Positions 3,021 to 54,678 of a stretch of DNA of 64,000 bases are shown piece after piece (within the stretch, counting starts at the first letter, position 1; each line of letters opens with the position of its first letter). Under the pieces are notes generated by a model. The model searched no databases. It was not told where the DNA came from and saw nothing but the letters and a program-made list of their open reading frames with translations. The position numbers were made by a program, and so were the translations under genes. The DNA comes from Henricia sp. BOLD:AAB3569 (Eukaryota; Echinodermata; Asteroidea; Spinulosida; Echinasteridae), in NCBI GenBank assembly GCA_037783545.1, contig JBBELK010001650.1:177637-241636 (forward strand). Direction: 5' to 3'.

Positions 3021-3135
3021 TGTAGCTAAAACTCGCTCCCGGCACACTAATTGTTGGCACAAACAGACGTCGCTTTCGGCGAATACTGCGTCTCGAACGT
3101 TCGTTATTTTGGAACTGAAGGAATTTCCAGACAAA

Positions 3136-18840: not shown

Positions 18841-18889
18841 TCGTTAACGCACCGCAGTTTGGCTCGGTCGTTAACGCACCGCAGTTTGG
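18841..18889. repeat. 27-bp tandem duplication at the left edge of insertion copy 1
   Basis: The 27-bp sequence at 18841-18867 is followed by its first 22 bases again at 18868-18889. Both copies carry the same two changes from the satellite consensus (gttaacg for gttgacg, caccgc for cacccc), so those mutations came first and the duplication second. It abuts the 703-bp insertion and is absent at the other copy (33409), where the satellite runs straight into the insertion. Confidence 0.9.
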
Positions 18890-19235
18890 GGCGGTCGGGT
18901 TGGCGTACGGGTTCTTTCCTCGCTGGCCTGTGATGACCGCTTTCCAAAGGACTACCCTTGCACATAGGTAGTTTGGAGGAGTTTTTCGCGGAATCCCGTG
19001 ATGTCCTGGAACGTTGCTCAATGATGGAGTGACCAGTACGTACGTCACGGGGAACGCCGATGCAATTTTGGAACACGATTGGATCCGAGTCTGCGGTCTT
19101 GATTCTTCCAGACCTGGACTGGTGACGATTGTGGTTTTATGAGGATGTACCTGTGGTGCTTCTCGAAGGATATGACCTGATACTCGGACACGATCGACCA
19201 AGATTGGTGATGATTGTGATGGAGAATACTCGCCG

Positions 19236-19511
19236 GATAATGACCTGGATTGGCAACGACAACGAATGAGGAAATTTGGTGGATAAATGACCTGGACTGG
19301 CAACGACAACGAATGAGGAAATTTGGCAATAACGGCGAACAATTGGTGGATAAATGAGCTGGACTGGCAACGACTACGAATGAGGAAATTTGGCAATAAC
19401 GGCGAACGCTTAGTGGATAAATGACCTGGACTGGCAACGACTACGAATGAGGAAATTTGGCAATAACGGCGAACGCTTAGTGGATAAATGACCTGGACTG
19501 GCAACGACAAC
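19236..19511. repeat. 67-bp minisatellite inside insertion copy 1
   Basis: Units start gataaatgacctggactgg and contain aatgaggaaatttggc and aataacggcgaac. Starts fall at 19236 (a short 46-bp first unit), 19282, 19349, 19416 and 19483 (partial). One unit reads atgagctgg where the matching unit of copy 2 reads atgacctgg. Confidence 0.92.
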
Positions 19512-19557
19512 GGCTGAAGCACTGGTTCTATCGGTAACAACGTTGGACTGGTTAGCG

Positions 19558-19592
19558 TGTTTTATTCGGACGAATAAAACATTTTAGAAAAA
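19558..19592 (+). promoter_or_regulatory. Hairpin with polyadenylation signal and A tail, insertion copy 1
   Basis: A perfect 10-bp stem tgttttattc/gaataaaaca encloses the loop ggac (19558-19581). The right arm contains AATAAA (19573-19578). Nine bases later a run of five A (19588-19592) ends the insertion. AATAAA followed by A residues is what a reverse-transcribed polyadenylated RNA would leave. The short tail and the hairpin are unusual. Confidence 0.65.
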
Positions 19593-20387
19593 GGCAATTT
19601 GGTCAAAGTGCTGTCCAAACGTCGGCAAATTTGGAGGTCGAAAAATGTTCCGACGAACTTCAAATTTTGCATGCTCCAAACTCTCTATATTGCGCACTTG
19701 TCCTAAAAAATTGACAGACTTTCGCCGGGAAATGACAGAGAAATTTCAAAGTTTAGGGAAAACTGGGTCGGGGCTTCCTGACTGCTCACGCAAACCGTGG
19801 CTGTCTGTACACACCTCTTTGGTGTACTCCTGAGTCGTGCGCATGCTCAGTCCTTCGGACTGTCGTTGACGCACCCCAGTTTGGCTCGGCAATTTGGTCA
19901 AAGTGTGGTCCAAACGTCGGCAAATTTGGAGGTCGAAAAATGTTCCGACGAACTTCAAATTGTGCATGCTCCAAACTCTCTATATTGCGCACTTGTCCTA
20001 AAAAAATTGACAGACTTTCGCCGGGAAATGGCAGAGAAATTTCAAAGTTTAGGGAAAACTGGGTTGGGGCTTCCTGACTGCTCACGCAAACCGTGGCTGT
20101 CTGTACACACCTCTTTGGTGTACTCCTGAGTCGTGCGCATGCTCAGTCCTTCGGACTGTCGTTGACGCACCCCAGTTTGGCTCGGCAATTTGGTCAAAGT
20201 GTGGTCCAAACGTCGGCAAATTTGGAGGTCGAAAAATGTTCCGACGAACTTCAAATTGTACATGCTCCAAACTCTCTATATTGCGCACTTGTCCTAAAAA
20301 ATTGACAGACTTTCGCCGGGAAATGGCAGAGAAATTTCAAAGTTTAGGGAAAACTGGGTTGGGGCTTCCTGACTGCTCACGCAAACC

Positions 20388-21845
20388 GTGGCTGTCTGTA
20401 CACACCTCTTTGGTGTACTCCTGAGTCGTGCGCATGCTCAGTCCTTCGGACTGTCGTTGACGCACCCCAGTTTGGCTCGGCAATTTGGTCAAAGTGTGGT
20501 CCAAACGTCGGCAAATTTGGAGGTCGAAAAATGTTCCGACGAACTTCAAATTTTGCATGCTCCAAACTCTCTATATTGCGCACTTGTCCTAAAAAATTGA
20601 CAGACTTTCGCCGGGAAATGGCAGAGAAATTTCAAAGTTTAGGGAAAACTGGGTTGGGGCTTCCTGACTGCTCACGCAAACCGTGGCTGTCTGTACACAC
20701 CTCTTTGGTGTACTCCTGAGTCGTGCGCATGCTCAGTCCTTCGGACTGTCGTTGACGCACCCCAGTTTGGCTCGGCAATTTGGTCAAAGTGTGGTGGAGG
20801 TCGAAAAATGTTCCGACGAACTTCAAATTTTGCATGCTCCAAACTCTCTATATTGCGCACTTGTCCTAAAAAAATTACAGACTTTCGCCGGGAAATGGCA
20901 GAGAAATTTCAAAGTTTAGAGAAAACTGGGTTGGGGCTTCCTGACTGCTCACGCAAACCGTGGCTGTCTGTACACACCTCTTTGGTGTATTCCTGAGTCG
21001 TGCGCATGCTCTGTCCTTCGGACTGTCGTTGACCCACCCCAGTTTGGCTCGGCAATTTGGTCAAAGTGTGGTCCAAACGTCGGCAAATTTGGAGGTCGAA
21101 AAATGTTCCGACGAACTTCAAATTTTGCATGCTCCAAACTCTCTATATTGCGCACTTGTCCTAAAAAAATGACAGACTTTCAACGGGAAATGGCAGAGAA
21201 ATTTCAAAGTTTAGGGAAAACTGGGTTGGGGCTTCCTGACTGCTCACGCAAACCGTGGCTGTCTGTACACACCTCTTTGGTGTACTCCTGAGTCGTGCGC
21301 ATGCTCAGTCATTCGGACTGTCGTTGACGCACCCCAGTTTGGCTCGGCAATTTGGTCAAAGTGTGGTCCAAACGTCGGCAAATTTGGAGGTCGAAAAATG
21401 TTCCGACGAACTTCAAATTTTGCATGCTCCAAACTCTCTATATTGCGCACTTGTCCTAAAAAATTGACAGACTTTCAACGGGAAATGGCAGAGAAATTTC
21501 AAAGTTTAGGGAAAACTGGGTTGGGGCTTCCTGACTGCTCACGCAAACCGTGGCTGTCTGTACACACCTCTTTGGTGTACTCCTGAGTCGTGCGCATGCT
21601 CAGTCCTTCGGACTGTCGTTGACGCACCCCAGTTTGGCTCGGCAATTTGGTCAAAGTGTGGTCCAAACGTCGGCAAATTTGGAGGTCGAAAAATGTTCCG
21701 ACGAACTTCAAATTGTGCATGCTCCAAACTCTCTATATTGCGCACTTGTCCTAAAAAAATTGACAGACTTTCGCCGGGAAATGGCAGAGAAATTTCAAAG
21801 TTTAGGGAAAACTGGGTTGGGGCTTCCTGACTGCTCACGCAAACC
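20388..21845. repeat. About five-unit segment duplicated 7951 bp downstream (28339-29796)
   Basis: The order of variants is the same in both places: a normal unit, the 18-bp-deleted unit, a gtgtattcc/gttgaccc unit, a cattcgg unit, and a seven-A unit. Small differences remain (gctctgtcc versus gctcagtcc, ccttcgg versus cctttgg). The 7951-bp offset is 27 units minus net indels. A third, shorter match lies near 30979-31550. Confidence 0.7.
20786..20806. repeat. 295-bp unit with an 18-bp deletion (277 bp), first example
   Basis: After gtgtggt the unit jumps to ggaggtcg, losing the 18 bases that normally contain aaacgtcggcaaat. The junction is at 20795/20796. The same deletion occurs at 28746/28747 and 31386/31387. 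Confidence 0.92.
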
Positions 21846-23615
21846 GTGGCTGTCTGTACACACCTCTTTGGTGTACTCCTGAGTCGTGCGCATGCTCAGT
21901 CATTCGGACTGTCGTTGACGCACCCCAGTTTGGCTCGGCAATTTGGTCAAAGTGTGGTCCAAACGTCGGCAAATCTGGAGGTCGAAAAATGTTCCGACGA
22001 ACTTCAAATTTTGCATGCTCCAAACTCTCTATATTGCGCACTTGTCCAAAAAAATTGACAGACTTTCGCCGGGAAATGGCAGAGAAATTTCAAAGTTTAG
22101 GGAAAACTGGGTTGGGGTTTCCTGACTGCTCACGCAAACCGTGGCTGTCTGTACACACCTCTTTGGTGTACTCCTGAGTCGTGCGCATGCTCAGTCATTC
22201 GGACTGTCGTTGACGCACCCTAGTTTGGCTCGGCAATTTGGTCAAAGTGCTGTCCAAACGTCGGCAAATTTGGAGGTCGAAAAATGTTCCGACGAACTTC
22301 AAATTTTGCATGCTCCAAACTCTCTATATTGCGCACTTGTCCTAAACAATTGACAGACTTTCGCCGGGAAATGGCAGAGAAATTTCAAAGTTTAGGGAAA
22401 ACTGGGTTGGGGCTTCCTGACTGCTCACGCAAACCGTGGCTGTCTGTACACACCTCTTTGGTGTACTCCTGAGTCGTGCGCATGCTCAGTCCTTCGGACT
22501 GTCGTTGACGCACCCCAGTTTGGCTCGGCAATTTGGTCAAAGTGTGGTCCAAACGTCGGCAAATTTGGAGGTCGAAAAATTTTCCGACGAACTTCAAATA
22601 TTGCATGCTCCAAACTCTCTATATTGCGCACTTGTCCTAAAAAATTGACAGACTTTCGCCGGGAAATGGCAGAGAAATTTCAAAGTTTATGGAAAACTGG
22701 GTTGGGGCTTCCTGACTGCTCACGCAAACCGTGGCTGTCTGTACACACCTCTTTGGTGTACTCCTGAGTCGTGCGCATGCTCAGTCCTTCGGACTGTCGT
22801 TGACGCACCCCAGTTTGGCTCGGCAATTTGGTCAAAGTGTGGTCCAAACGTCGGCAAATTTGGAGGTCGAAAAATGTTCCGACGAACTTCAAATTTTGCA
22901 TGCTCCAAACTCTCTATATTGCGCACTTGTCCTAAAAAATGGACAGACTTTCGCCGGGAAATGGCAGAGAAATTTCAAAGTTTAGAGAAAACTGGGTTGG
23001 GGCTTCCTGACTGCTCACGCAAACCGTGGCTGTCTGTACACACCTCTTTGGTGTATTCCTGAGTCGTGCGCATGCTCAGTCCTTCGGACTGTCGTTGACC
23101 CACCCCAGTTTGGCTCGGCAATTTGGTCAAAGTGTGGTCCAAACGTCGGCAAATTTTGAGGTCGAAAAATGTTCCGACGAACTTCAAATTGTGCATGCTC
23201 CAAACTCTCTATATTGCGCACTTGTCCTAAAAAAATGACAGACTTTCAACGGGAAATGGCAGAGAAATTTCAAAGTTTAGGGAAAACTGGGTTGGGGCTT
23301 CCTGACTGCTCACGCAAACCGTGGCTGTCTGTACACACCTCTTTGGTGTACTCCTGAGTCGTGCGCATGCTCAGTCATTCGGACTGTCGTTGACGCACCC
23401 CAGTTTGGCTCGGCAATTTGGTCAAAGTGTGGTCCAAACGTCGGCAAATTTGGAGGTCGAAAAATGTTCCGACGAACTTCAAATTTTGCATGCTCCAAAC
23501 TCTCTATATTGCGCACTTGTCCTAAAAAATTGACAGACTTTCAACGGGAAATGGCAGAGAAATTTCAAAGTTTAGGGAAAACTGGGTTGGGGCTTCCTGA
23601 CTGCTCACGCAAACC

Positions 23616-25700
23616 GTGGCTGTCTGTACACACCTCTTTGGTGTACTCCTGAGTCGTGCGCATGCTCAGTCCTTCGGACTGTCGTTGACGCACCCCAGTT
23701 TGGCTCGGCAATTTGGTCAAAGTGTGGTCCAAACGTCGGCAAATTTGGAGGTCGAAAAATGTTCCGACGAACTTCAAATTGTGCATGCTCCAAACTCTCT
23801 ATATTGCGCACTTGTCCTAAAAAAATTGACAGACTTTCGCCGGGAAATGGCAGAGAAATTTCAAAGTTTAGGGAAAACTGGGTTGGGGCTTCCTGACTGC
23901 TCACGCAAACCGTGGCTGTCTGTACACACCTCTTTGGTGTACTCCTGAGTCGTGTGCATGCTCAGTCATTCGGACTGTCGTTGACGCACCCCAGTTTGGC
24001 TCGGCAATTTGGTCAAAGTGTGGTCCAAACGTCGGCAAATTTGGAGGTCGAAAAATGTTCCGACGAACTTCAAATTTTGCATGCTCCAAACTCTCTATAT
24101 TGCGCACTTGTCCTAAAAAATTGACAGACTTTCGCCGGGAAATGGCAGAGAAATTTCAAAGTTTAGGGAAAACTGGGTTGGGGCTTCCTGACTGCTCACG
24201 CAAACCGTGGCTGTCTGTACACACCTCTTTGGTGTACTCCTGAGTCGTGCGCATGCTCAGTCCTTCGGACTGTCGTTGACGCACCCCAGTTTGGCTCGGC
24301 AATTTGGTCAAAGTGTGGTCCAAACGTCGGCAAATTTGGAGGTCGAAAAATGTTCCGACGAACTTCAAATTGTGCATGCTCCAAACTCTCTATATTGCGC
24401 ACTTGTCCTAAAAAATTAACATACTTTCGCCGGGAAATGGCAGAGAAATTTCAAAGTTTAGGGAAAACTGGGTTGGGGCTTCCTGACTGCTCACGCAAAC
24501 CGTGGCTGTCTGTACACACCTCTTTGGTGTACTCCTGAGTCGTGCGCATGCTCAGTCATTCGGACTGTCGTTGACGCACCCCAGTTTGGCTCGGCAATTT
24601 GGTCAAAGTGTGGTCCAAACGTCGGCAAATTTGGAGGTCGAAAAATGTTCCGACGAACTTCAAATTTTGCATGCTCCAAACTCTCTATATTGCGCACTTG
24701 TCCTAAAAAATTGACAGACTTTCAACGGGAAATGGCAGAGAAATTTCAAAGTTTAGGGAAAACTGGGTTGGGGCTTCCTGACTGCTCACGCAAACCGTGG
24801 CTGTCTGTACACACCTCTTTGGTGTACTCCTGAGTCGTGCGCATGCTCAGTCCTTCGGACTGTCGTTGACGCACCCCAGTTTGGCTCGGCAATTTGGTCA
24901 AAGTGTGGTCCAAACGTCGGCAAATTTGGAGGTCGAAAAATGTTCCGACGAACTTCAAATTGTGCATGCTCCAAACTCTCTATATTGCGCACTTGTCCTA
25001 AAAAAATTGACAGACTTTCGCCGGGAAATGGCAGAGAAATTTCAAAGTTTAGGGAAAACTGGGTTGGGGCTTCCTGACTGCTCACGCAAACCGTGGCTGT
25101 CTGTACACACCTCTTTGGTGTACTCCTGAGTCGTGTGCATGCTCAGTCATTCGGACTGTCGTTGACGCACCCCAGTTTGGCTCGGCAATTTGGTCAAAGT
25201 GTGGTCCAAACGTCGGCAAATTTGGAGGTCGAAAAATGTTCCGACGAACTTCAAATTTTGCATGCTCCAAACTCTCTATATTGCGCACTTGTCCTAAAAA
25301 ATTGACAGACTTTCGCCGGGAAATGGCAGAGAAATTTCAAAGTTTAGGGAAAACTGGGTTGGGGCTTCCTGACTGCTCACGCAAACCGTGGCTGTCTGTA
25401 CACACCTCTTTGGTGTACTCCTGAGTCGTGCGCATGCTCAGTCCTTCGGACTGTCGTTGACGCACCCCAGTTTGGCTCGGCAATTTGGTCAAAGTGTGGT
25501 CCAAACGTCGGCAAATTTGGAGGTCGAAAAATGTTCCGACGAACTTCAAATTGTGCATGCTCCAAACTCTCTATATTGCGCACTTGTCCTAAAAAATTAA
25601 CATACTTTCGCCGGGAAATGGCAGAGAAATTTCAAAGTTTAGGGAAAACTGGGTTGGGGCTTCCTGACTGCTCACGCAAACCGTGGCTGTCTGTACACAC
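23616..25700. repeat. Four-unit (1181-bp) tandem duplication
   Basis: The rare variant gagtcgtgtgcatg occurs near 23952 and 25133, preceded in both cases by a seven-A unit. The offset is 1181 bp (4 x 295 + 1). Matching continues to about 24500/25690, where cattcgg and ccttcgg units differ. Confidence 0.75.
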
Positions 25701-28700
25701 CTCTTTGGTGTACTCCTGAGTCGTGCGCATGCTCAGTCCTTCGGACTGTCGTTGACGCACCCCAGTTTGGCTCGGCAATTTGGTCAAAGTGTGGTCCAAA
25801 CGTCGGCAAATTTGGAGGTCGAAAAATGTTCCGACGAACTTCAAATTTTGCATGCTCCAAACTCTCTATATTGCGCACTTGTCCTAAAAAAATTGACAGA
25901 CTTTCGCCGGGAAATGGCAGAGAAATTTCAAAGTTTATGGAAAACTGGGTTGGGGCTTCCTGACTGCTCACGCAAACCGTGGCTGTCTGTACACACCTCT
26001 TTGGTGTACTCCTGAGTCGTGCGCATGCTCAGTCCTTCGGACTGTCGTTGACGCACCCCAGTTTGGCTCGGCAATTTGGTCAAAGTGTGGTCCAAACGTC
26101 GGCAAATTTGGAGGTCGAAAAATGTTCCGACGAACTTCAAATTGTGCATGCTCCAAACTCTCTATATTGCGCACTTGTCCTAAAAAATTAACATACTTTC
26201 GCCGGGAAATGGCAGAGAAATTTCAAAGTTTAGGGAAAACTGGGTTGGGGCTTCCTGACTGCTCACGCAAACCGTGGCTGTCTGTACACACCTCTTTGGT
26301 GTACTCCTGAGTCGTGCGCATGCTCAGTCCTTCGGACTGTCGTTGACGCACCCCAGTTTGGCTCGGCAATTTGGTCAAAGTGTGGTCCAAACGTCGGCAA
26401 ATTTGGAGGTTGAAAAATTTTCCGACGAACTTCAAATTTTGCATGCTCCAAACTCTCTATATTGCGCACTTGTCCTAAAAAATTGACAGACTTTCGCCGG
26501 GAAATGGCAGAGAAATTTCAAAGTTTATGGAAAACTGGGTTGGGGCTTCCTGACTGCTCACGCAAACCGTGGCTGTCTGTACACACCTCTTTTGTGTACT
26601 CCTGAGTCGTGCGCATGCTCAGTCCTTCGGACTGTCGTTGACGCACCCCAGTTTGGCTCGGCAATTTGGTCAAAGTGTGGTCCAAACGTCGGCAAATTTG
26701 GAGGTCGAAAAATGTTCCGACGAACTTCAAATTTTGCATGCTCCAAACTCTCTATATTGCGCACTTGTCCTAAAAAATTGACATACTTTCGCCGGGAAAT
26801 GGCAGAGAAATTTCAAAGTTTAGGGAAAACTGGGTTGGGGCTTCCTGACTGCTCACGCAAACCGTGGCTGTCTGTACACACCTCTTTGGTGTACTCCTGA
26901 GTCGTGCGCATGCTCAGTCATTCGGACTGTCGTTGACGCACCCCAGTTTGGCTCGGCAATTTGGTCAAAGTGTGGTCCAAACGTCGGCAAATTTGGAGGT
27001 CGAAAAATGTTCCGACGAACTTCAAATTTTGCATGCTCCAAACTCTCTATATTGCGCACTTGTCCTAAAAAATTGACAGACTTTCAACGGGAAATGGCAG
27101 AGAAATTTCAAAGTTTAGGGAAAACTGGGTTGGGGCTTCCTGACTGCTCACGCAAACCGTGGCTGTCTGTACACACCTCTTTGGTGTACTCCTGAGTCGT
27201 GCGCATGCTCAGTCATTCGGACTGTCGTTGACGCACCCCAGTTTGGCTCGGCAATTTGGTCAAAGTGTGGTCCAAACGTCGGCAAATTTGGAGGTCGAAA
27301 AATGTTCCGACGAACTTCAAATTTTGCAAGCTCCAAACTCTCTATATTGCGCACTTGTCCTAAAAAATTGACAGACTTTCAACGGGAAATGGCAGAGAAA
27401 TTTCAAAGTTTAGGGAAAACTGGGTTGGGGCTTCCTGACTGCTCACGCAAACCGTGGCTGTCTGTACACACCTCTTTGGTGTACTCCTGAGTCGTGCGCA
27501 TGCTCAGTCCTTCGGACTGTCGTTGACGCACCCCAGTTTGGCTCGGCAATTTGGTCAAAGTGTGGTCCAAACGTCGGCAAATTTGGAGGTCGAAAAATGT
27601 TCCGACGAACTTCAAATTTTGCATGCTCCAAACTCTCTATATTGCGCACTTGTCCTAAAAAATGGACAGACTTTCGCCGGGAAATGGCAGAGAAATTTCA
27701 AAGTTTAGGGAAAACTGGGTTGGGGCTTCCTGACTGCTCACGCAAACCGTGGCTGTCTGTACACACCTCTTTGGTGTACTCCTGAGTCGTGCGCATGCTC
27801 AGTCCTTCGGACTGTCGTTGACGCACCCCAGTTTGGCTCGGCAATTTGGTCAAAGTGTGGTCCAAACGTCGGCAAATTTGGAGGTCGAAAAATGTTCCGA
27901 CGAACTTCAAATTTTGCATGCTCCAAACTCTCTATATTGCGCACTTGTCCTAAAAAAATGACAGACTTTCGCCGGGAAATGGCAGAGAAATTTCAAAGTT
28001 TAGGGAAAACTGGGTTGGGGCTTCCTGACTGCTCACGCAAACCGTGGCTGTCTGTACACACCTCTTTGGTGTACTCCTGAGTCGTGCGCATGCTCACTCC
28101 TTCGGACTGTCGTTGACGCACCCCAGTTTGGCTCGGCAATTTGGTCAAAGTGTGGTCCAAACGTCGGCAAATCTGGAGGTCGAAAAATGTTCCGACGAAC
28201 TTCAAATTTTGCATGCTCCAAACTCTCTATATTGCGCACTTGTCCTAAAAAATGGACAGACTTTCGCCGGGAAATGGCAGAGAAATTTCAAAGTTTAGGG
28301 AAAACTGGGTTGGGGCTTCCTGACTGCTCACGCAAACCGTGGCTGTCTGTACACACCTCTTTGGTGTACTCCTGAGTCGTGCGCATGCTCAGTCCTTCGG
28401 ACTGTCGTTGACGCACCCCAGTTTGGCTCGGCAATTTGGTCAAAGTGTGGTCCAAACGTCGGCAAATTTGGAGGTCGAAAAATGTTCCGACGAACTTCAA
28501 ATTTTGCATGCTCCAAACTCTCTATATTGCGCACTTGTCCTAAAAAATTGACAGACTTTCGCCGGGAAATGGCAGAGAAATTTCAAAGTTTAGGGAAAAC
28601 TGGGTTGGGGCTTCCTGACTGCTCACGCAAACCGTGGCTGTCTGTACACACCTCTTTGGTGTACTCCTGAGTCGTGCGCATGCTCAGTCCTTTGGACTGT

Positions 28701-28736
28701 CGTTGACGCACCCCAGTTTGGCTCGGCAATTTGGTC

Positions 28737-28757
28737 AAAGTGTGGTGGAGGTCGAAA
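28737..28757. repeat. 295-bp unit with an 18-bp deletion, second example
   Basis: Same junction as at 20795 (gtgtggt followed by ggaggtcg), here at 28746/28747. The following unit again carries ttagagaaaac and gtgtattcc. Confidence 0.92.
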
Positions 28758-31376: not shown

Positions 31377-31397
31377 AAAGTGTGGTGGAGGTCGAAA
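31377..31397. repeat. 295-bp unit with an 18-bp deletion, third example
   Basis: Same junction, at 31386/31387. The next unit keeps ttagagaaaac but has gtgtactcc, so it is a recombinant of the arrangement seen at the other two sites. Confidence 0.92.
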
Positions 31398-33754
31398 AAT
31401 GTTCCGACGAACTTCAAATTTTGCATGCTCCAAACTCTCTATATTGCGCACTTGTCCTAAAAAATTTACAGACTTTCGCCGGGAAATGGCAGAGAAATTT
31501 CAAAGTTTAGAGAAAACTGGGTTGGGGCTTCCTGACTGCTCACGCAAACCGTGGCTGTCTGTACACACCTCTTTGGTGTACTCCTGAGTCGTGAGCATGC
31601 TCAGTCCTTCGGACTGTCGTTGACGCACCCCAGTTTGGCTCGGCAATTTGGTCAAAGTGTGGTCCAAACGTCGGCAAATTTGGAGGTCGAAAAATGTTCC
31701 GACGAACTTCAAATTTTGCATGCTCCAAACTCTCTATATTGCGCACTTGTCCTAAAAAATTGACAGACTTTCGCCGGGAAATGGCAGAGAAATTTCAAAG
31801 TTTAGGGAATACTGGGTTGGGGCTTCCTGACTGCTCACGCAAACCGTGGCAGTCTGTACACACCTCTTTGGTGTACTCCTGAGTCGTGCGCATGCTCAGT
31901 CCTTCGGACTGTCGTTGACGCACCCCAGTTTGGCTCGGCAATTTGGTCAAAGTGTGGTCCAAACGTCGGCAAATTTGGAGGTCGAAAAATTTTCCGACGA
32001 ACTTCAAATTTTGCATGCTCCAAACTCTCTATATTGCGCACTTGTCCTAACAAATTGACAGACTTTCGCCGGGAAATGGCAGAGAAATTTCAAAGTTTAT
32101 GGAAAACTGGGTTGGGGCTTCCTGACTGCTCACGCAAACCGTGGCTGTCTGTACACACCTCTTTGGTGTACTCCTGAGTCGTGCGCATGCTCAGTCCTTC
32201 GGACTGTCGTTGACGCACCCCAGTTTGGCTCGGCAATTTGGTCAAAGTGTGGTCCAAACGTCGGCAAATTTGGAGGTCGAAAAATTTTCCGACGAACTTC
32301 AAATTTTGCATGCTCCAAACTCTCTATATTGCGCACTTGTCCTAACAAATTGACAGACTTTCGCCGGGAAATGGCAGAGAAATTTCAAAGTTTATGGAAA
32401 ACTGGGTTGGGGCTTCCTGACTGCTCACGCAAACCGTGGCTGTCTGTACACACCTCTTTGGTGTACTCCTGAGTCGTGCGCATGCTCAGTCCTTCGGACT
32501 GTCGTTGACGCACCCCAGTTTGGCTCGGCAATTTGGTCAAAGTGTGGTCCAAACGTCGGCAAATTTGGAGGTCGAAAAATGTTCCGACGAACTTCAAATT
32601 TTGCATGCTCCAAACTCTCTATATTGCGCACTTGTCCTAAAAAATTGACAGACTTTCGCCGGGAAATGGCAGAGAAATTTCAAAGTTTAGGGAAAACTGG
32701 GTTGGGGCTTCCTGACTGCTCACGCAAACCGTGGCTGTCTGTACACACCTCTTTGGTGTACTCCTGAGTCGTGCGCATGCTCAGTCCTTCGGACTGTCGT
32801 TGACGCACCCCAGTTTGGCTCGGCAATTTGGTCAAAGTGTGGTCCAAACGTCGGCAAATTTGGAGGTCGAAAAATGTTCCGACGAACTTCAAATTTTGCA
32901 TGCTCCAAACTCTCTATATTGCGCACTTGTCCTAAAAAATTGACAGACTTTCGCCGGGAAATGGCAGATAAATTTCAAAGTTTAGGGAAAACTGGGTTGG
33001 GGCTTCCTGACTGCTCACGCAAACCGTGGCTGTCTGTACACACCTCTTTGGTGTACTCCTGAGTCGTGCGCATGCTCAGTCCTTCGGACTGTCGTTGACG
33101 CACCCCAGTTTGGCTCGGCAATTTGGTCAAAGTGTGGTCCAAACGTCGGCAAATTTGGAGGTCGAAAAATGTTCCGACGAACTTCAAATTTTGCATGCTC
33201 CAAACTCTCTATATTGCGCACTTGTCCTAAAAAATTGACAGACTTTCGCCGGGAAATGGCAGAGAAATTTCAAAGTTTAGGGAAAACTGGGTTGGGGCTT
33301 CCTGACTGCTCACGCAAACCGTGGCTGTCTGTACACACCTCTTTGGTGTACTCCTGAGTCGTGCGCATGCTCAGTCCTTCGAACTGTCGTTGACGCACCC
33401 CAGTTTGGGGCGGTCGGGTTGGCGTACGGGTTCTTTCCTCGCTGGCCTGTGATGACCGCTTTCCAAAGGACTACCCTTGCACAGAGGTAGTTTGGAGGAG
33501 TTTTTCGCGGAATCCCGTGATGTCCTGGAACGTTGCTCAATGATGGAGTGACCAGTACGTACGTCACGGGGAACGCCGATACAATTTTGGAACACGATTG
33601 GATCCGAGTCTGCGGTCTTGATTCTTCCAGACCTGGACTGGTGACGATTGTGGTTTTATGAGGATGTACCTGTGGTGCTTCTCGAAGGATATGACCTGAT
33701 ACTCGGACACGATCGACCAAGATTGGTGATGATTGTGATGGAGAATACTCGCCG

Positions 33755-34030
33755 GATAATGACCTGGATTGGCAACGACAACGAATGAGGAAATTTGGTG
33801 GATAAATGACCTGGACTGGCAACGACAACGAATGAGGAAATTTGGCAATAACGGCGAACAATTGGTGGATAAATGACCTGGACTGGCAACGACTACGAAT
33901 GAGGAAATTTGGCAATAACGGCGAACGCTTAGTGGATAAATGACCTGGACTGGCAACGACTACGAATGAGGAAATTTGGCAATAACGGCGAACGCTTAGT
34001 GGATAAATGACCTGGACTGGCAACGACAAC
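33755..34030. repeat. 67-bp minisatellite inside insertion copy 2
   Basis: Unit starts at 33755 (46-bp short unit), 33801, 33868, 33935 and 34002 (partial). Spacing is exactly 67 bp for the full units, and the arrangement matches copy 1. Confidence 0.92.
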
Positions 34031-34076
34031 GGCTGAAGCACTGGTTCTATCGGTAACAACGTTGGACTGGTTAGCG

Positions 34077-34111
34077 TGTTTTATTCGGACGAATAAAACA
34101 TTTTAGAAAAA
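34077..34111 (+). promoter_or_regulatory. Hairpin with polyadenylation signal and A tail, insertion copy 2
   Basis: The stem tgttttattc (34077-34086) pairs with gaataaaaca (34091-34100). AATAAA lies at 34092-34097 and the terminal A run at 34107-34111. Identical to copy 1. Confidence 0.65.
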
Positions 34112-46115: not shown

Positions 46116-49100
46116 GTGGCTGTCTGTACACACCTCTTTGGTGTACTCCTGAGTCGTGCGCATGCTCAGTCCTTCGGACTGTCGTTGACGCACCCCAGTT
46201 TGGCTCGGCAATTTGGTCAAAGTGTGGTCCAAACGTCGGCAAATTTGGAGGTCGAAAAATGTTCCGACGAACTTCAAATTTTGCATGCTCCAAACTCTCT
46301 ATATTGCGCACTTGTCCTAAAAAATTGACAGACTTTCGCCGGGAAATGGCAGAGAAATTTCAAAGTTTAGGGAAAACTGGGTTGGGGCTTCCTGACTGCT
46401 CACGCAAACCGTGGCTGTCTGTACACACCTCTTTGGTGTACTCCTGAGTCGTGCGCATGCTCAGTCCTTCGGACTGTCGTTGACGCACCCCAGTTTGGCT
46501 CAGCAATTTGGTCAAAGTGTGGTCCAAACGTCGGCAAATTTGGAGGTCGAAAAATTTTCCGACGAACTTCAAATTGTGCATGCTCCAAACTCTCTATATT
46601 GCGCACTTGTCCTAAAAAAATAACATACTTTCGCCGGGAAATGGCAGAGAAATTTCAAAGTTTAGGGAAAACTGGGTTGGGGCTTCCTGACTGCTCACGC
46701 AAATCGTGGCTGTCTGTACACACCTCTTTGGTGTACTCCTGAGTCGTGCGCAGGCTCAGTCATTCGGACTGTCGTTGACGCACCCTAGTTTGGCTCGGCA
46801 ATTTGGTCAAAGTGCTGTCCAAACGTCGGCAAATTTGGAGGTCGAAAAATGTTCCGACGAACTTCAAATTTTGCATGCTCCAAACTCTCTATATTGCGCA
46901 CTTGTCCTAACAAATTGACAGACTTTCGCCGGGAAATGGCAGAGAAATTTCAAAGTTTATGGAAAACTGGGTTGGGGCTTCCTGACTGCTCACGCAAACC
47001 GTGGCTGTCTGTACACACCTCTTTGGTGTACTCCTGAGTCGTGCGCATGCTCAGTCCTTCGGACTGTCGTTGACGCACCCCAGTTTGGCTCGGCAATTTG
47101 GTCAAAGTGTGGTCCAAACGTCGGCAAATTTGGAGGTCGAAAAATGTTCCGACGAACTTTAAATTTTGCATGCTCCAAACTCTCTATATTGCGCACTTGT
47201 CCTAAAAAATTGACATACTTTCGCCGGGAAATGGCAGAGAAATTTCAAAGTTTAGGGAAAACTGGGTTGGGGCTTCCTGACTGCTCACGCAAACCGTGGC
47301 TGTCTGTACACACCTCTTTGGTGTACTCCTGAGTCGTGCGCATGCTCAGTCATTCGGACTGTCGTTGACGCACCCCAGTTTGGCTCGGCAATTTGGTCAA
47401 AGTGTGGTCCAAACGTCGGCAAATTTGGAGGTCGAAAAATGTTCCGACGAACTTCAAATTTTGCATGCTCCAAACTCTCTATATTGCGCACTTGTCCTAA
47501 AAAATTGACAGACTTTCAACGGGAAATGGCAGAGAAATTTCAAAGTTTAGGGAAAACTGGGTTGGGGCTTCCTGACTGCTCACGCAAACCGTGGCTGTCT
47601 GTACACACCTCTTTGGTGTACTCCTGAGTCGTGCGCATGCTCAGTCCTTCGGACTGTCGTTGACGCACCCCAGTTTGGCTCGGCAATTTGGTCAAAGTGT
47701 GGTCCAAACGTCGGCAAATTTGGAGGTCGAAAAATGTTCCGACGAACTTCAAATTTTGCATGCTCCAAACTCTCTATATTGCGCACTTGTCCTAAAAAAT
47801 TGACATACTTTCGCCGGGAAATGGCAGAGAAATTTCAAAGTTTAGGGAAAACTGGGTTGGGGCTTCCTGACTGCTCACGCACACCGTGGCTGTCTGTACA
47901 CACCTCTTTGGTGTACTCCTGAGTCGTGCGCATGCTCAGTCATTCGGACTGTCGTTGACGCACCCCAGTTTGGCTCGGCAATTTGGTCAAAGTGTGGTCC
48001 AAACGTCGGCAAATTTGGAGGTCGAAAAATATTCCGACGAACTTCAAATTTTGCATGCTCCAAACTCTCTATATTGCGCACTTGTCCTAAAAAATTGACA
48101 GACTTTCAACGGGAAATGGCAGAGAAATTTCAAAGTTTAGGGAAAACTGGGTTGGGGCTTCCTGACTGCTCACGCAAACCGTGGCTGTCTGTACACACCT
48201 CTTTGGTGTACTCCTGAGTCGTGCGCATGCTCAGTCCTTCGGACTGTCGTTGACGCACCCCAGTTTGGCTCGGCAATTTGGTCAAAGTGTGGTCCAAACG
48301 TCGGCAAATTTGGAGGTCGAAAAATGTTCCGACGAACTTCAAATTCTGCATGCTCCAAACTCTCTATATTGCGCACTTGTCCTAAAAAATGGACAGACTT
48401 TCGCCGGGAAATGGCAGAGAAATTTCAAAGTTTAGGGAAAACTGGGTTGGGGCTTCCTGACTGCACACGCAAACCGTGGCTGTCTGTACACACCTCTTTG
48501 GTGTACTCCTGAGTCGTGCGCATGCTCAGTCCTTCGGACTGTCGTTGACGCACCCCAGTTTGGCTCGGCAATTTGGTCAAAGTGTGGTCCAAACGTCGGC
48601 AAATTTGGAGGTCGAAAAATGTTCCGACGAACTTCAAATTTTGCATGCTCCAAACTCTCTATATTGCGCACTTGTCCTAAAAAATTGACAGACTTTCGCC
48701 GGGAAATGGCAGAGAAATTTCAAAGTTTAGGGAAAACTGGGTTGGGGCTTCCTGACTGCTCACGCAAACCGTGGCTGTCTGTACACACCTCTTTGGTGTA
48801 CTCCTGAGTCGTGCGCATGCTCAGTCCTTCGGACTGTCGTTGACGCACCCCAGTTTGGCTCGGCAATTTGGTCAAAGTGTGGTCCAAACGTCGGCAAATT
48901 TGGAGGTCGAAAAATGTTCCGACGAACTTCAAATTTTGCATGCTCCAAACTCTCTATATTGCGCACTTGTCCTAAAAAATTGACAGACTTTCGCCGGGAA
49001 ATGGCAGAGAAATTTCCAAGTTTAGGGAAAACTGGGTTGGGGCTTCCTGACTGCTCACGCAAACCGTGGCTGTCTGTACACACCTCTTTGGTGTACTCCT

Positions 49101-50540
49101 GAGTCGTGCGCATGCTCAGTCCTTCGAACTGTCGTTGACGCACCCCAGTTTGGCTCGGCAATTTGGTCAAAGTGTGGTCCAAACGTCGGCAAATTTGGAG
49201 GTCGAAAAATGTTCCGACGAACTTCAAATTTTGCATGCTCCAAACTCTCTATATTGCGCACTTGTCCTAAAAAATTGACAGACTTTCGCCGGGAAATGGC
49301 AGAGAAATTTCCAAGTTTAGGGAAAACTGGGTTGGGGCTTCCTGACTGCTCACGCAAACCGTGGCTGTCTGTACACACCTCTTTGGTGTACTCCTGAGTC
49401 GTGCGCATGCTCAGTCCTTCGAACTGTCGTTGACGCACCCCAGTTTGGCTCGGCAATTTGGTCAAAGTGTGGTCCAAACGTCGGCAAATTTGGAGGTCGA
49501 AAAATGTTCCGACGAACTTCAAATTTTGCATGCTCCAAACTCTCTATATTGCGCACTTGTCCTAAAAAATTGACAGACTTTCGCCGGGAAATGGCAGAGA
49601 AATTTCAAAGTTTAGGGAAAACTGGGTTGGGGCTTCCTGACTGCTCACGCAAACCGTGGCTGTCTGTACACACCTCTTTGGTGTACTCCTGAGTCGTGCG
49701 CATGCTCACTCCTTCGGACTGTCGTTGACGCACCCCAGTTTGGCTCGGCAATTTGGTCAAAGTGTGGTCCAAACGTCGGCAAATTTGGAGGTCGAAAAAT
49801 GTTCCGAAGAACTTCAAATTTTGCATGCTCCAAACTCTCTATATTGCGCACTTGTCCTAAAAAATTGACAGACTTTCGCCGGGAAATGGCAGAGAAATTT
49901 CCAAGTTTAGGGAAAACTGGGTTGGGGCTTCCTGACTGCTCACGCAAACCGTGGCTGTCTGTACACACCTCTTTGGTGTACTCCTGAGTCGTGCGCATGC
50001 TCAGTCCTTCGAACTGTCGTTGACGCACCCCAGTTTGGCTCGGCAATTTGGTCAAAGTGTGGTCCAAACGTCGGCAAATTTGGAGGTCGAAAAATGTTCC
50101 GACGAACTTCAAATGTTGCATGCTCCAAACTCTCTATATTGCGCACTTGTCCTAAAAAATTGACAGACTTTCGCCGGGAAATGGCAGAGAAATTTCAAAG
50201 TTTAGGGAAAACTGGGTTGGGGCTTCCTGACTGCTCACGCAAACCGTGGCTGTCTGTACACACCTCTTTGGTGTACTCCTGAGTCGTGCGCATGCTCAGT
50301 CCTTCGGACTGTCGTTGACGCACCCCAGTTTGGCTCGGCAATTTGGTCAAAGTGTGGTCCAAACGTCGGCAAATTTGGAGGTCGAAAAATGTTCCGACGA
50401 ACTTCAAATTGTGCATGCTCCAAACTCTCTATATTGCGCACTTGTCCTAAAAAATTAACATACTTTCGCCGGGAAATGGCAGAGAAATTTCAAAGTTTAG
50501 GGAAAACTGGGTTGGGGCTTCCTGACTGCTCACGCAAACC

Positions 50541-51757
50541 GTGGCTGTCTGTACACACCTCTTTGGTGTACTCCTGAGTCGTGCGCATGCTCAGTCCTTC
50601 GGACTGTCGTTGACGCACCCCAGTTTGGCTCGGCAATTTGGTCAAAGTGTGGTCCAAACGTCGGCAAATTTGGAGGTCGAAAAATGTTCCAACGAACTTC
50701 AAATTGTGCATGCTCCAAACTCTCTATATTGCGCACTTGTCCTAAAAAATTAACATACTTTCGCCGGGAAATGGCAGAGAAATTTCAAAGTTTAGGGAAA
50801 ACTGGGTTGGGGCTTCCTGACTGCTCACGCAAACCGTGGCTGTCTGTACACACCTCTTTGGTGTACTCCTGAGTCGTGCGCATGCTCAGTCCTTCGGACT
50901 GTCGTTGACGCACCCCAGTTTGGCTCGGCAATTTGGTCAAAGTGTGGTCCAAACGTCGGCAAATTTGGAGGTCGAAAAATGTTCCGACGAACTTCAAATT
51001 GTGCATGCTCCAAACTCTCTATATTGCGCACTTGTCCTAAAAAATTAACATACTTTCGCCGGGAAATGGCAGAGAAATTTCAAAGTTTAGGGAAAACTGG
51101 GTTGGGGCTTCCTGACTGCTCACGCAAACCGTGGCTGTCTGTACACACCTCTTTGGTGTACTCCTGAGTCGTGCGCATGCTCAGTCCTTCGGACTGTCGT
51201 TGACGCACCCCAGTTTGGCTCGGCAATTTGGTCAAAGTGTGGTCCAAACGTCGGCAAATTTGGAGGTCGAAAAATGTTCCGACGAACTTCAAATTGTGCA
51301 TGCTCCAAACTCTCTATATTGCGCACTTGTCCTAAAAAATTAACATACTTTCGCCGGGAAATGGCAGAGAAATTTCAAAGTTTAGGGAAAACTGGGTTGG
51401 GGCTTCCTGACTGCTCACGCAAACCGTGGCTGTCTGTACACACCTCTTTGGTGTACTCCTGAGTCGTGCGCATGCTCAGTCCTTCGGACTGTCGTTGACG
51501 CACCCCAGTTTGGCTCGGCAATTTGGTCAAAGTGTGGTCCAAACGTCGGCAAATTTGGAGGTCGAAAAATGTTCCAACGAACTTCAAATTGTGCATGCTC
51601 CAAACTCTCTATATTGCGCACTTGTCCTAAAAAATTAACATACTTTCGCCGGGAAATGGCAGAGAAATTTCAAAGTTTAGGGAAAACTGGGTTGGGGCTT
51701 CCTGACTGCTCACGCAAACCGTGGCTGTCTGTACACACCTCTTTGGTGTACTCCTGA
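50541..51757. repeat. Three-unit (885-bp) repeat
   Basis: The variant gttccaacgaac occurs at about 50687 and 51572, separated by 885 bp (3 x 295) with matching units between. The surrounding units from about 50246 to 52600 are unusually uniform attgtgc/ttaacatac units. Confidence 0.7.
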
Positions 51758-53226
51758 GTCGTGCGCATGCTCAGTCCTTCGAACTGTCGTTGACGCACCC
51801 CAGTTTGGCTCGGCAATTTGGTCAAAGTGTGGTCCAAACGTCGGCAAATTTGGAGGTCGAAAAATGTTCCGACGAACTTCAAATGGTGCATGCTCCAAAC
51901 TCTCTATATTGCGCACTTGTCCTAAAAAATTGACAGACTTTCGCCGGGAAATGGCAGAGAAATTTCAAAGTTTAGGGAAAACTGGGTTGGGGCTTCCTGA
52001 CTGCTCACGCAAACCGTGGCTGTCTGTACACACCTCTTTGGTGTACTCCTGAGTCGTGCGCATGCTCAGTCCTTCGGACTGTCGTTGACGCACCCCAGTT
52101 TGGCTCGGCAATTTGGTCAAAGTGTGGTCCAAACGTCGGCAAATTTGGAGGTCGAAAAATGTTCCGACGAACTTCAAATTGTGCATGCTCCAAACTCTCT
52201 ATATTGCGCACTTGTCCTAAAAAATTAACATACTTTCGCCGGGAAATGGCAGAGAAATTTCAAAGTTTAGGGAAAACTGGGTTGGGGCTTCCTGACTGCT
52301 CACGCAAACCGTGGCTGTCTGTACACACCTCTTTGGTGTACTCCTGAGTCGTGCGCATGCTCAGTCCTTCGGACTGTCGTTGACGCACCCCAGTTTGGCT
52401 CGGCAATTTGGTCAAAGTGTGGTCCAAACGTCGGCAAATTTGGAGGTCGAAAAATGTTCCGACGAACTTCAAATTGTGCATGCTCCAAACTCTCTATATT
52501 GCGCACTTGTCCTAAAAAATTAACATACTTTCGCCGGGAAATGGCAGAGAAATTTCAAAGTTTAGGGAAAACTGGGTTGGGGCTTCCTGACTGCTCACGC
52601 AAACCGTGGCTGTCTGTACACACCTCTTTGGTGTACTCCTGAGTCGTGCGCATGCTCAGTCATTCGGACTGTCGTTGACGCACCCTAGTTTGGCTCGGCA
52701 ATTTGGTCAAAGTGCTGTCCAAACGTCGGCAAATTTGGAGGTCGAAAAATGTTCCGACGAACTTCAAATTTTGCATGCTCCAAACTCTCTATATTGCGCA
52801 CTTGTCCTAAAAAATTGACAGACTTTCGCCGGGAAATGGCAGAGAAATTTCCAAGTTTAGGGAAAACTGGGTTGGGGCTTCCTGACTGCTCACGCAAACC
52901 GTGGCTGTCTGTACACACCTCTTTGGTGTACTCCTGAGTCGTGCGCATGCTCAGTCCTTCGAACTGTCGTTGACGCACCCCAGTTTGGCTCGGCAATTTG
53001 GTCAAAGTGTGGTCCAAACGTCGGCAAATTTGGAGGTCGAAAAATGTTCCGACGAACTTCAAATTTTGCATGCTCCAAACTCTCTATATTGCGCACTTGT
53101 CCTAAAAAATCGACAGACTTTCGCCGGGAAATGGCAGAGAAATTTCAAAGTTTAGGGAAAACTGGGTTGGGGCTTCCTGACTGCTCACGCAAACCGTGGC
53201 TGTCTGTACACACCTCTTTGGTGTAC

Positions 53227-53283
53227 TCCTGAGTCGTGCGCATGCTCAGTCCTTCGGACTGTCGTTGACGCACCCCAGTTTGG
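53227..53283. repeat. 57-bp direct repeat, left flank of the ORF insertion
   Basis: This satellite segment, from tcctgagtcgtgcgc to caccccagtttgg, is present again at 54679-54735 immediately after the insertion, with one difference (ccttcgg here, cattcgg there). It may be a long target-site duplication, or simply two satellite alleles joined by recombination around the insert. It falls wholly inside the block that is absent from the 209-bp satellite. Confidence 0.75.
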
Positions 53284-54678
53284 GACTTGTGCCGTGAACC
53301 ATGAACGACGCTAATTCTAACCTGAAGAGGGAGCTGACTGTGACTTTGGACCTGCCCAGCAAGTTGAACTACCAGGATGTCTGCCGAACCATTGCGTCTA
53401 CCCTTCCCGACGGCGAGATCAAGTGCCTCCAACAACTCGGAGACCTGCGATGGCTTGTGACGCCGAGGACCGCCGCCGGGAGGAAGAAGATCCTGGAAAC
53501 TCAACTTGCCGCGGGGAATGTCAGGTTTAACGCCAGCCCGGTGCAGCGACCAGTAGACTACGTTACCGTTAGCTACGCACCCTACGAAATGGAGGATCGG
53601 CCTATCATCACACTTCTTGGACAGTACGGTACGGTGTTGGGAGTACGACGGGGACACTGGGTATTGCATCCAACGTGGGAAAACGGCATGCGGCATATCC
53701 GCATGCATGTCGACAAGGCCATCCCGTCGTACGTGTGGGTCGGGGGTTACCAATTAAAGGTACGTTACAACGGCCAAGTAGAGACCTGCCGGCGGTGTGG
53801 AGCGCCCGGGCATAAGGCGGCTTTTTGTGTCCAGATTCGCTGCTATAATTGCGGTGAAGCTGGGCACCGCAGCAACATTTGCCCGAAGCCGCCTCGACAC
53901 CAACAGACCTGGGCGCAGAGAGTCGGCAATAACATCCAGCACAGAGACAATGTAAGCATTCATTCAGACACCGACTCCGAGGATACCGCCGACACCCCGA
54001 CCCCCACCACCCCGACCCCCACCACAACCCCAACACCGGCAGCCCGCACCGTGCCTGCCCCGGGTCCGCAACGCGCTGGACCGAGCAATGCTCCGCAACC
54101 AAAACCCGCAGGAACCAGCGCGGAACGTACCCCGGGACCACAGAACGCCGGTCCTCCATCAGCCGCTGCACCGGGAAAAAAATCCGCGCCCCGTCCAGTT
54201 CCACGCAAGAACACTCCTGTGGGAAAACCAAACATGGGACGAGGCGCGGCCCTGCCTGGCCGGACAGCTCCCTCTTCACCACCCGGCAAGACCGCACCCA
54301 AGGCCCCACCACCAACCAAGCCTGCACCGCCCCCGCCATTGGCACCCGCCCCGACTCCTGCTCCGGCAAAAGGACCGCGTCCGCCCAGGAAAGGAATAAA
54401 CAAGGCAGACGCAACGCGTTCCTGGGCGGAACGGTCTATGTTTGAAGTACTTTTGGACGAAATTGACTCAATTATAACTTCGGGGCCTCTTGTCATCAAT
54501 GAGACCCCGTTGTCGGAGCGGGAGTCCACGGACTCGGACAAGGACTCAGTCGTCTCAATGATTTCAAGCAAGCGGGGGCGGTCGTCGTCTGACGAACAGC
54601 AGGGTGGTGTGTGGGAAACCAAAAAGAACTGCCGTAAGGCCAAGAAGAAATGAGAATTGGTTTGGGGTTTTTAACAAA
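53284..54678 (+). mobile_element. 1395-bp insertion carrying only a Gag-like / LINE ORF1-like gene
   Basis: Non-satellite sequence, visibly richer in G+C, replaces the satellite after cagtttgg. It consists of 17 bp of leader, a 450-codon ORF with its stop, and 25 bp of trailer ending ttttaacaaa. No reverse transcriptase, endonuclease, poly-A tail, LTR or terminal inverted repeat is present. With the 57-bp flanking direct repeat it resembles a half-LINE (ORF1 without ORF2), or a captured gene. The left junction is at the same satellite base as in the two 703-bp insertions. Confidence 0.7.
53301..54653 (+). CDS. CCHC zinc-knuckle Gag-like protein (LINE ORF1-like or ZCCHC3-like), 450 aa
   Basis: The intact 450-codon frame starts at an ATG with A at -3. 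An in-frame TGA at 53295-53297 supports this start. Residues 1-160 form a globular region with the layout seen ahead of the knuckles in many animal ORF1/Gag-like proteins (for example VENG-type WENGMRHIRM at 126-135, then IPSYVWVGGYQLKV at 141-154). Two zinc knuckles of CX2CX4HX4C type follow: C163, C166, H171, C176 and C181, C184, H189, C194. Residues 231-365 are low-complexity, rich in Pro, Thr and Ala. Residues 370-400 look helical and acidic (SWAERSMFEVLLDEIDS). Residues 405-435 are Ser/Asp-rich and the C-terminus is basic (KKNCRKAKKK). Known relatives bind nucleic acid as retroelement RNP proteins. A host gene captured from such an element is the alternative. No ORF2 partner is nearby, and expression is unknown. 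Confidence 0.85.
   Translation: MNDANSNLKRELTVTLDLPSKLNYQDVCRTIASTLPDGEIKCLQQLGDLRWLVTPRTAAGRKKILETQLAAGNVRFNASPVQRPVDYVTVSYAPYEMEDRPIITLLGQYGTVLGVRRGHWVLHPTWENGMRHIRMHVDKAIPSYVWVGGYQLKVRYNGQVETCRRCGAPGHKAAFCVQIRCYNCGEAGHRSNICPKPPRHQQTWAQRVGNNIQHRDNVSIHSDTDSEDTADTPTPTTPTPTTTPTPAARTVPAPGPQRAGPSNAPQPKPAGTSAERTPGPQNAGPPSAAAPGKKSAPRPVPRKNTPVGKPNMGRGAALPGRTAPSSPPGKTAPKAPPPTKPAPPPPLAPAPTPAPAKGPRPPRKGINKADATRSWAERSMFEVLLDEIDSIITSGPLVINETPLSERESTDSDKDSVVSMISSKRGRSSSDEQQGGVWETKKNCRKAKKK

Follow-up and report, generated by a model that had tools for sequence, protein, structure and literature searches.

A LINE of the sea star Henricia sp. very probably inserts at one base of a 295-bp satellite by target-primed reverse transcription, with a 703-bp element mobilised in trans and the RNAs of both starting in the satellite. 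The window (the whole 64,000-nucleotide stretch of DNA that was analysed) carries an array of this satellite on the plus strand from 4170 to 64000 (TRF rows 4170–53283 and 54679–64000, period 295), broken by three inserts; BLAST with the monomer left three stretches of at least 9 bp within the array uncovered (18868–19592, 33409–34111 and 53284–54678) and gave no minus-strand satellite match in the window. Units in the window are often nearly identical. The satellite makes up about 10% of the assembly, with 248,011 exact 36-bp monomer cores counted genome-wide in 740.7 Mb, and satellite rather than 28S rDNA is the target, no Rfam match in the window reaching the gathering score. An earlier note on this DNA had claimed that the three insertions begin after the same satellite bases, and the left flank of all three is indeed CAGTTTGG; the remaining occurrences of CAGTTTGG among the matches listed run on into satellite-type bases, mostly CTCGGCAATTTGG, that at 18855 being followed by the leader of the first 703-bp copy.

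Insertions share a fixed right junction

Junctions are clustered genome-wide far beyond chance. The exact 3' tail AATAAAACATTTTAGAAAAAG occurs 988 times genome-wide, and 908 of these copies (a count inflated by array duplication, the 703-bp elements recurring at 3695–3696-bp spacings) are followed within 0–24 nt by satellite TTGGTCAAAGTG. About four such tails are expected for random insertion in the same orientation with a 25-nt window, a figure that counts the exact 36-bp cores and leaves out monomers differing in the core. Reversed-pattern controls for the tail and satellite match gave 0, as did a comparable search with an 18-bp tail (gap 0–30) at a different place in the monomer. Read by eye, 100 of 100 rows among the matches listed had the tail at most 1 nt from one base. 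All 34 exact LINE 3' ends lie in satellite, 33 at the fixed base and one five bp upstream. Eleven of the 80 tails that the strict match left aside were inspected; 10 were in SINE-related or tandem-body context and 1 in satellite.

Judging by these sequences, the fixed coordinate for full elements is the right junction, CTC^GGCAATTTGG in the subfamily of the window, 3 bp past the shared left junction. That a retroelement endonuclease cuts the satellite at a fixed place, in the manner of the R elements, is supported by the 33 of 34 LINE ends at one base, with endonuclease specificity the probable cause. The shared left junction, which had been taken to mark the cut, does not do so; it is a by-product reached via several structures, because the LINE RNA would bring its own satellite-like leader of 23–30 nt.

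The inserted LINE belongs to the L1 group

The 1395-bp insert consists of LINE ORF1 with short flanks, ORF2 having been deleted at a 4-bp microhomology. All its features are on the plus strand. The bases GACTGTCGTTGACGCACCCCAGTTTGG at 53257–53283 are satellite or LINE leader, the two being indistinguishable since this locus has 0 differences from its own array over the 28 bases compared. The remainder of the 5' UTR, GACTTGTGCCGTGAACC, follows at 53284–53300 and is the same in long-form leaders, the short form being without TTGGGACTT. ORF1 (53301–54653) is an open frame of 450 aa with two CCHC zinc-knuckle stretches (Pfam zf-CCHC, E = 1.7e–7); it sits upstream of ORF2 and is, from these knuckles, of a putative RNA-binding type. 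At 54679–54682 the TCCT microhomology marks the loss of ORF2 and the 3' UTR, where other copies (13 other LINE loci listed) read TCCTATAAATAATGG. The window copy has also lost the 3' tail described below.

Full elements with endonuclease and reverse transcriptase are present at the fixed satellite site, the same phase at which the earlier note had suggested looking for them. Pfam assigned RVT_1 (3e–36) and Exo_endo_phos (8e–14) domains to ORF2, which matched human L1 ORF2p with E ~3e–84 over residues 5–856, against 1e–19 or weaker for R2 proteins; among the matches listed (42 of 3507 candidates scored), 11 of 46 ORF2 matches were stop-free over the full 1106 residues. By its domains the LINE is a two-ORF APE-endonuclease element of the L1 group, probably Tx1-like; it shows the sequence-specific insertion that is a trait of many Tx1 clade members, and it has an APE domain instead of the restriction-like endonuclease of the R2 clade. 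The structure of satellite, leader and ORF1 was found at 42 places genome-wide, which rules out an assembly join as the source of the ORF insert, a possibility that the earlier note had raised.

The 703-bp element shares the 3' tail of the LINE

Copies of the 703-bp element lie on the plus strand at 18890–19592 and 33409–34111, both with AAAAA meeting GGCAATTTGG at the right junction; the second is of type II, 'anneal' class, and without duplicated leader. Genome-wide there are at least 40 full-length places, listed at 100% (40 scored of 1200 candidates). The body contains 47/67-bp tandem repeats at 19235–19512 (plus strand; TRF rows 19235–19326 and 19279–19512), and it differs from the LINE body. 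The two inserts had been called unrelated, which holds for the bodies and fails at the end: the last 42 bp of the 703-bp element match those of the full LINE at 90%, comprising a 10-bp hairpin and AAAAAG. This tail, TGTTTTATTCGGACGAATAAAACATTTTAGAAAAA, is at 19558–19592 in the first copy and 34077–34111 in the second (both plus strand). The 10-bp stem is present in both elements, with one compensatory pair (U-A to C-G), and besides the 42-bp tail no LINE–703-bp match was found at E up to 0.01. Given this common tail, the 703-bp element is probably a non-autonomous passenger of the LINE, whose machinery would recognise the tail.

The passenger head (18889–18923, plus strand) has the same letters as a distinct SINE family has at its 5' end, read by eye in five loci (L091–L095) in which SINE sequence and an (AAC)n tail come after the head. 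In these five and in L051, GGTTCGAATCC is visible by eye and may be a Pol III box of a tRNA-like SINE head. A tRNA gene at the dispersed copies was considered and rejected, since ARAGORN gave 0 genes for L051–L053, L055 and L056 and Rfam gave 0 matches for them. The SINE head, tried as a control at a different place in the monomer, likewise gave 0, so SINE insertions provide no control for scattered phases; the SINEs of L091–L095 came from a search whose pattern already limits the phase.

The idea that the bodies survive in only three places does not hold. Passenger-type tails number several hundred and LINE copies dozens, the comparison being of 954 non-LINE tails, most of them not read singly, with 42 LINE leaders.

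Many LINE insertions are independent

We compared the LINE with its flanking satellite at 28 loci (378 pairs), two further loci (L027 and L035) having been dropped beforehand for a disrupted upstream flank. The first 1350 bp of the LINE were 99.4% identical on average (minimum 98.9%), whereas the flanking satellite unit averaged 93.2% (minimum 87.7%); the satellite was the less alike in 375 of the 378 pairs, and the two measures were uncorrelated (Spearman rho –0.05). With L027 and L035 included (30 loci, 435 pairs) the means were 99.4% and 92.2%. Array types beside LINEs numbered six at 95%. ORF1 regions so much more alike than their satellite surroundings, with no correlation between them, point to many independent insertions. 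It is very improbable, then, that one or a few insertions were multiplied by satellite amplification, which would make the shared junction uninformative on targeting: near-identical passengers do recur in contigs at similar spacings (3695 bp on C299, 3696 bp on C755), and the frequent near-identity of satellite units would suit such copying, but the divergence and the six array types show that LINE and flank were not co-copied in most of the 28 loci, and two different bodies use one site. For the LINE, this contrast between element and flank largely refutes co-amplification as the chief cause.

Elements carry a satellite-like leader

The first passenger copy is preceded by a 23-bp leader, GTCGTTAACGCACCGCAGTTTGG (18867–18889, plus strand; TRF 27-bp row 18840–18897), fused after CTCG and assigned to type I, 'join' class. 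It is a duplicate from the preceding unit, placed between the array and the 703-bp body; by its TTAACGCACCGC markers it is distinct from the other array units listed, and it has 438 exact matches genome-wide. For the LINE we compared leader and array at 30 loci, four of them (L014, L016, L023 and L027) without array consensus and one (L032) with one unit only. In 12 of the 14 loci with a differing array the diagnostic bases were those of the LINE-type leader GACGCACCCC. A T that occurs in none of the 26 array consensuses marks the start of the leader in 22 of 30 loci and, counted by eye, in 31 of 42 matches, and upstream of it the sequence was that of the local array in all three loci with a CATTCG array marker. 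These comparisons show a satellite-like leader of 23–30 nt carried by the LINE itself. RNA starts or joins vary, as the T marker is missing in 8 of 30 LINE loci, the leader of L036 is of array type and that of L017 of neither type, and L012, L036 and L038 depart from their own array upstream of the T marker.

The block preceding the inserts had also been read as the native 5' end of an element. This is partly right, in that the LINE bears such a leader, as is shown where leader and surrounding array differ. In mouse L1, monomers form a tandem 5' UTR, and the satellite as a whole could likewise be an expanded tandem 5' UTR of the LINE, the element being native and not inserted. The first 23–30 bases of the LINE are satellite-like, and satellite stands directly upstream of ORF1 in loci among the matches listed, both as such an origin would have it; it is nevertheless very improbable, given that satellite also stands directly 3' of all 34 LINE ends, that upstream arrays vary by subfamily while the LINE leader is mostly constant, and that BLAST of the LINE past its leader against the 295-bp unit gave nothing at E up to 1, for which reason the LINE body was rejected as satellite source. 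Spread of inserts by inter-array recombination or gene conversion, with no reverse transcription, is hardly credible: in-register left junctions and the mixed leaders of L012, L017 and L036 could be conversion tracts, but in most informative loci array type gives way to element type within a few bases, and 438 matches with the leader duplicated at the nick are not expected from conversion.

On our preferred reading the leader would come from RNA that starts in the satellite, and the left ends sort into the 'anneal' and 'join' classes of R2: 506 head matches lie near the seamless position (SINEs included) and 438 have a duplicated leader, neither being a pure passenger count because only the head, also present in the SINE, was read. 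Of 100 listed rows of the seamless class, five were read and all five were SINEs, most being unread. This R2-like trait, a leader with upstream target and two kinds of 5' junction, is present as a sequence signature, and it suggests, for a LINE group unrelated to R2, that RNA starts in the satellite and that the 5' end is completed as in R2. A self-cleaving ribozyme of the HDV type, as at the 5' end of R2, was looked for at the leader, and two 301-bp stretches gave no ribozyme match in Rfam at E up to 2; to this extent the 5' processing of R2 is not reproduced.

Proposed mechanism

Target-primed reverse transcription would start from a bottom-strand nick that the LINE endonuclease makes at CTC^GGCAATTTGG or, in other subfamilies, at the equivalent site, and the LINE machinery would recognise the 3' hairpin tail of the RNA, a 10-bp stem with TTTTAGAAAAA. 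The 703-bp element, composed of a SINE head, an unrelated repeat-bearing body and the LINE tail, may use this machinery in trans. Both RNAs would begin in the upstream satellite unit, near the boundary of TTCG and GACTGTCG, some 25–30 nt before the nick, and because of this start the cDNA end would carry a satellite leader. Annealing of that leader in register to the upstream unit would leave the seamless left junction, always after CAGTTTGG; alternatively, joining of the leader at the nick would leave it duplicated.

More broadly, and with the balance about even in our judgement, the satellite may be both landing pad and promoter, with a start site in each of its ~250,000 monomers ~25–30 nt upstream of the nick, so that each insertion gains a promoter and each RNA a target-matching leader; an L1-group LINE would have converged on the R2 life cycle, and a passenger family ~20 times as numerous would exploit the same trick. 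For a LINE tied to one base of a satellite forming about a tenth of the genome, the supply of sites would be almost unlimited and their use probably harmless, and it shows one route by which selfish elements can inhabit satellite DNA. Since monomers resemble one another and almost all lack an insert, the choice of target, the use of the promoter and parasitism by the passenger could be measured directly, and the two left-junction classes offer a test of the anneal/join model derived from R2 in LINEs of an unrelated group. An APE endonuclease specific for a satellite would also be a candidate tool for targeted insertion.

Comparison with known systems

Tx1 elements have an ORF1 with zinc knuckles. 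Among APE LINEs, those of the Tx1 and R1 clades are target-specific, and the targets listed are rRNA and tRNA genes, spliced leader exons, transposons, microsatellites and telomeric repeats (PMC4640811). The Henricia LINE resembles these clades in its APE endonuclease, its strict site in multicopy sequence and (for Tx1) its zinc-knuckle ORF1, and differs in its target, a 295-bp satellite of ~10% of the assembly, known site-specific LINEs being mostly in RNA genes, telomeres or microsatellites. R2 of 28S rDNA has a fixed 3' junction, RNA leaders with 13–28 nt of upstream target and Anneal or Join 5' ends (PMC11331408), and its endonuclease is restriction-like (PMC4640811). The Henricia LINE is like R2 in all three of the former features, the leader and the 5' classes by sequence signature; unlike R2 it has an APE endonuclease and two ORFs, its target is satellite, and the leader stretches searched gave no ribozyme match. 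YURE elements, related to Utopia/NeSL, are described as occasional in the U2-derived satellites (U2_sat) of sea squirts (PMC4640811); they too are LINEs inside a satellite, whereas the Henricia LINE is of another group, with all 34 exact LINE tails in satellite. Celine of poplar centromeres, with 84% in CENH3 domains and TSDs of 10–30 bp (PMC11288735), is likewise an endonuclease and reverse transcriptase LINE concentrated in a repeat-rich chromosome region; the parts consulted describe no single satellite base for Celine. Titles and abstract openings, thin for subscription papers, mentioned no LINE fixed to one satellite base. LINE/SINE pairs with a common 3' tail are known; in the Henricia pair, too, the 3' tail hairpin is all that the two bodies have in common, and the pair differs in also having a common site-specific target and a satellite leader.

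The LINE and its relation to the passenger

The 295-bp satellite occupies the window (C1650:177637–241636; assembly size 740.7 Mb) from 4170 onward, and its exact monomer cores number 248,011 genome-wide (at 295 bp each, about 73 Mb or roughly 10% of the assembly). With one monomer as query, BLAST left exactly three uncovered stretches of at least 9 bp inside the satellite, which hold two copies of a 703-bp non-autonomous element, the passenger (18890–19592 and 33409–34111), and a 1395-bp insert (53284–54678). CAGTTTGG precedes each of the three, confirming the common left junction reported in the earlier note. An adjoining 209-bp satellite (4–4198) aligned partially to the 295-bp unit (single unit against single unit, without a significance test); in the aligned second pass the 209-bp satellite is gapped over GACGCACCCCAGTTTGGCTCG, beside the LINE target.

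The 1395-bp insert codes for a 450-aa protein with CCHC knuckles. A DNA search, in which 40 of 75 candidates were scored, found it at 98–100% in at least 39 further places, a few of them partial matches. Downstream of this ORF1, four loci that we fetched (L039–L042) carry ORF2, which encodes an endonuclease and a reverse transcriptase and is intact or broken according to copy, and then a 3′ UTR terminating in TGTTTTATTTGGAAAAATAAAACATTTTAGAAAAA, with satellite immediately after. ORF2 matched human L1 ORF2p across residues 5–856 (E about 3e–84), and its entire 1106-residue frame was open in 11 of the 46 matches listed; intact-looking LINE copies therefore exist. Both ORF2 and the 3′ UTR are missing from the copy in the window, where the join falls at a 4-bp repeat, TCCT. 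One fetched copy has an exact 83-bp tandem duplication within ORF2 (L039, 3269–3429), and an ORF2 relative of just 92% identity with four stops (G000:C937:123879–126965) perhaps represents an older lineage.

By BLAST (E up to 0.01), the sole part common to the LINE and the passenger is the last 42 bp (90%, junction G included); in each, the tail folds into a hairpin of 10 bp, and one pair differs between them in a compensatory way.

The right junction

What stays constant among the insertions is their right junction. There are 988 occurrences of the 21-bp tail genome-wide, 908 of them with TTGGTCAAAGTG within 24 nt downstream, vs. about 4 such pairs expected under random insertion (our arithmetic, from the 248,011 exact cores); 908 is not an event count, because array duplication accounts for part of the passengers. 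All 100 of these listed start, by our reading, at most 1 nt from the same satellite base, and a genome-wide pattern search set to one other stretch of the monomer gave 0. Of the 80 tails that the strict match does not cover we read 11: ten lay in SINE-related or tandem-body contexts and one in satellite with an altered base. All 34 exact LINE 3′ ends were within satellite, 33 at the fixed base (in units reading GGCAATTTGG, GGGAATTGG, GGAAATTGG, GGAATTTG, GGGATTTTGG and close variants of these), the remaining one 5 bp upstream. Full elements with a reverse transcriptase at the same phase, which the earlier note had proposed to look for, are present.

Duplication of arrays already carrying the LINE was weighed at 28 loci (two of 30 were left out because their flanks were disrupted). 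Over its first 1350 bp, from the ORF1 start region, the LINE was on average 99.4% alike (minimum 98.9%) vs. 93.2% (minimum 87.7%) for the flanking satellite units; the satellite was less alike than the LINE in 375 of 378 pairs, correlation was absent (rho –0.05), and the arrays fell into six groups at 95%. In most cases, therefore, LINE and array were not co-copied.

Left junctions and the leader

Junctions and leader, the satellite-like 23–30 nt at the element's 5′ end, were read directly from the sequence. Of the 26 loci that yielded an array consensus, 14 had an array distinguishable from the LINE leader by its diagnostic bases; 12 of these 14 had the LINE-type leader (GACGCACCCC), L019 and L038 with private changes, the exceptions being L017 (neither type) and L036 (array-type). 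The T marking the leader at TTCG|TACTG was in none of the 26 array consensuses and in 22 of 30 LINE loci and 31 of 42 genome-wide matches (the latter our own count). Sequence 5′ of this T matched the local array in all three loci whose array bears the CATTCG marker; L012, L036 and L038 deviate from their arrays there. Leader markers of window passenger copy 1 differ from other units in its array.

For head-bearing elements, 506 matches were at the seamless position CAGTTTGG|GGCGG or close to it; they are not pure passengers, since the pattern covers just the SINE-shared head and the five rows read of 100 listed were all SINEs. The 23-bp leader was duplicated after CTCG in another 438 matches, and all 14 such loci fetched (L001–L006, L043–L050) had passenger body and tail. 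The shared left junction, taken in the earlier note for a possible cut site, is real but reflects the leader and not the cut; the fixed base is on the right.

Passenger copies and SINEs

By eye, the first 35 bp of the passenger are identical to the head of a distinct, (AAC)n-tailed SINE family (L091–L095). Four of these SINEs (L091–L094) lie in satellite with ordinary target duplications at varying positions; these arrays therefore seem to be used by a second LINE machinery as well. In dispersed passenger copies (L051–L053, L055, L056), tails, or body copies in tandem, abut the second part of the SINE, at a right junction AAAAA|GCCTTTCA equivalent to that after CCTC in the uninterrupted SINE, a position reminiscent in sequence of the satellite site CTC^GGC. 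These copies may share descent from one composite, and the SINE site is therefore a lead, not a second target. At L055 (C120:608794–613400) six tails of passenger-body copies are arranged head-to-tail with SINE after the last, as if by repeated insertion or amplification at a single site. Elsewhere (L096, C378:210700–213000), two passenger-type copies lie on opposite strands within 2.3 kb, satellite flanking both.

Proposed mechanism and known systems

In our best reading, the bottom strand would be nicked at CTC^GGCAATTTGG and target-primed reverse transcription would start from the hairpin tail of an RNA whose start would lie near TTCG|GACTGTCG in the preceding satellite unit, 30 nt upstream of the nick for the LINE and 25–26 nt for duplicated leaders; the 5′ end would be completed by annealing or joining. 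Endonuclease specificity, trans-mobilisation and promoter are all inferred from sequence patterns.

None of the papers listed in our literature search described a LINE fixed to a single base of an ordinary satellite. Most target-specific LINEs belong to lineages that branched early or to the Tx1 and R1 lineages, and they insert into rRNA and tRNA genes, spliced leader exons, transposons, microsatellites and telomeres; YURE occurs occasionally in U2-derived satellites (PMC4640811). Celine is centromeric with TSDs of 10–30 bp (PMC11288735). The observation is real and mostly explained: this is a site-specific LINE that is accompanied by a passenger and has a 5′ signature like that of R2. For R2, PMC11331408 distinguishes Anneal, in which the cDNA end pairs with upstream target without duplication, from Join, a direct fusion, and the seamless and leader-duplicated left ends here are the signatures so named.
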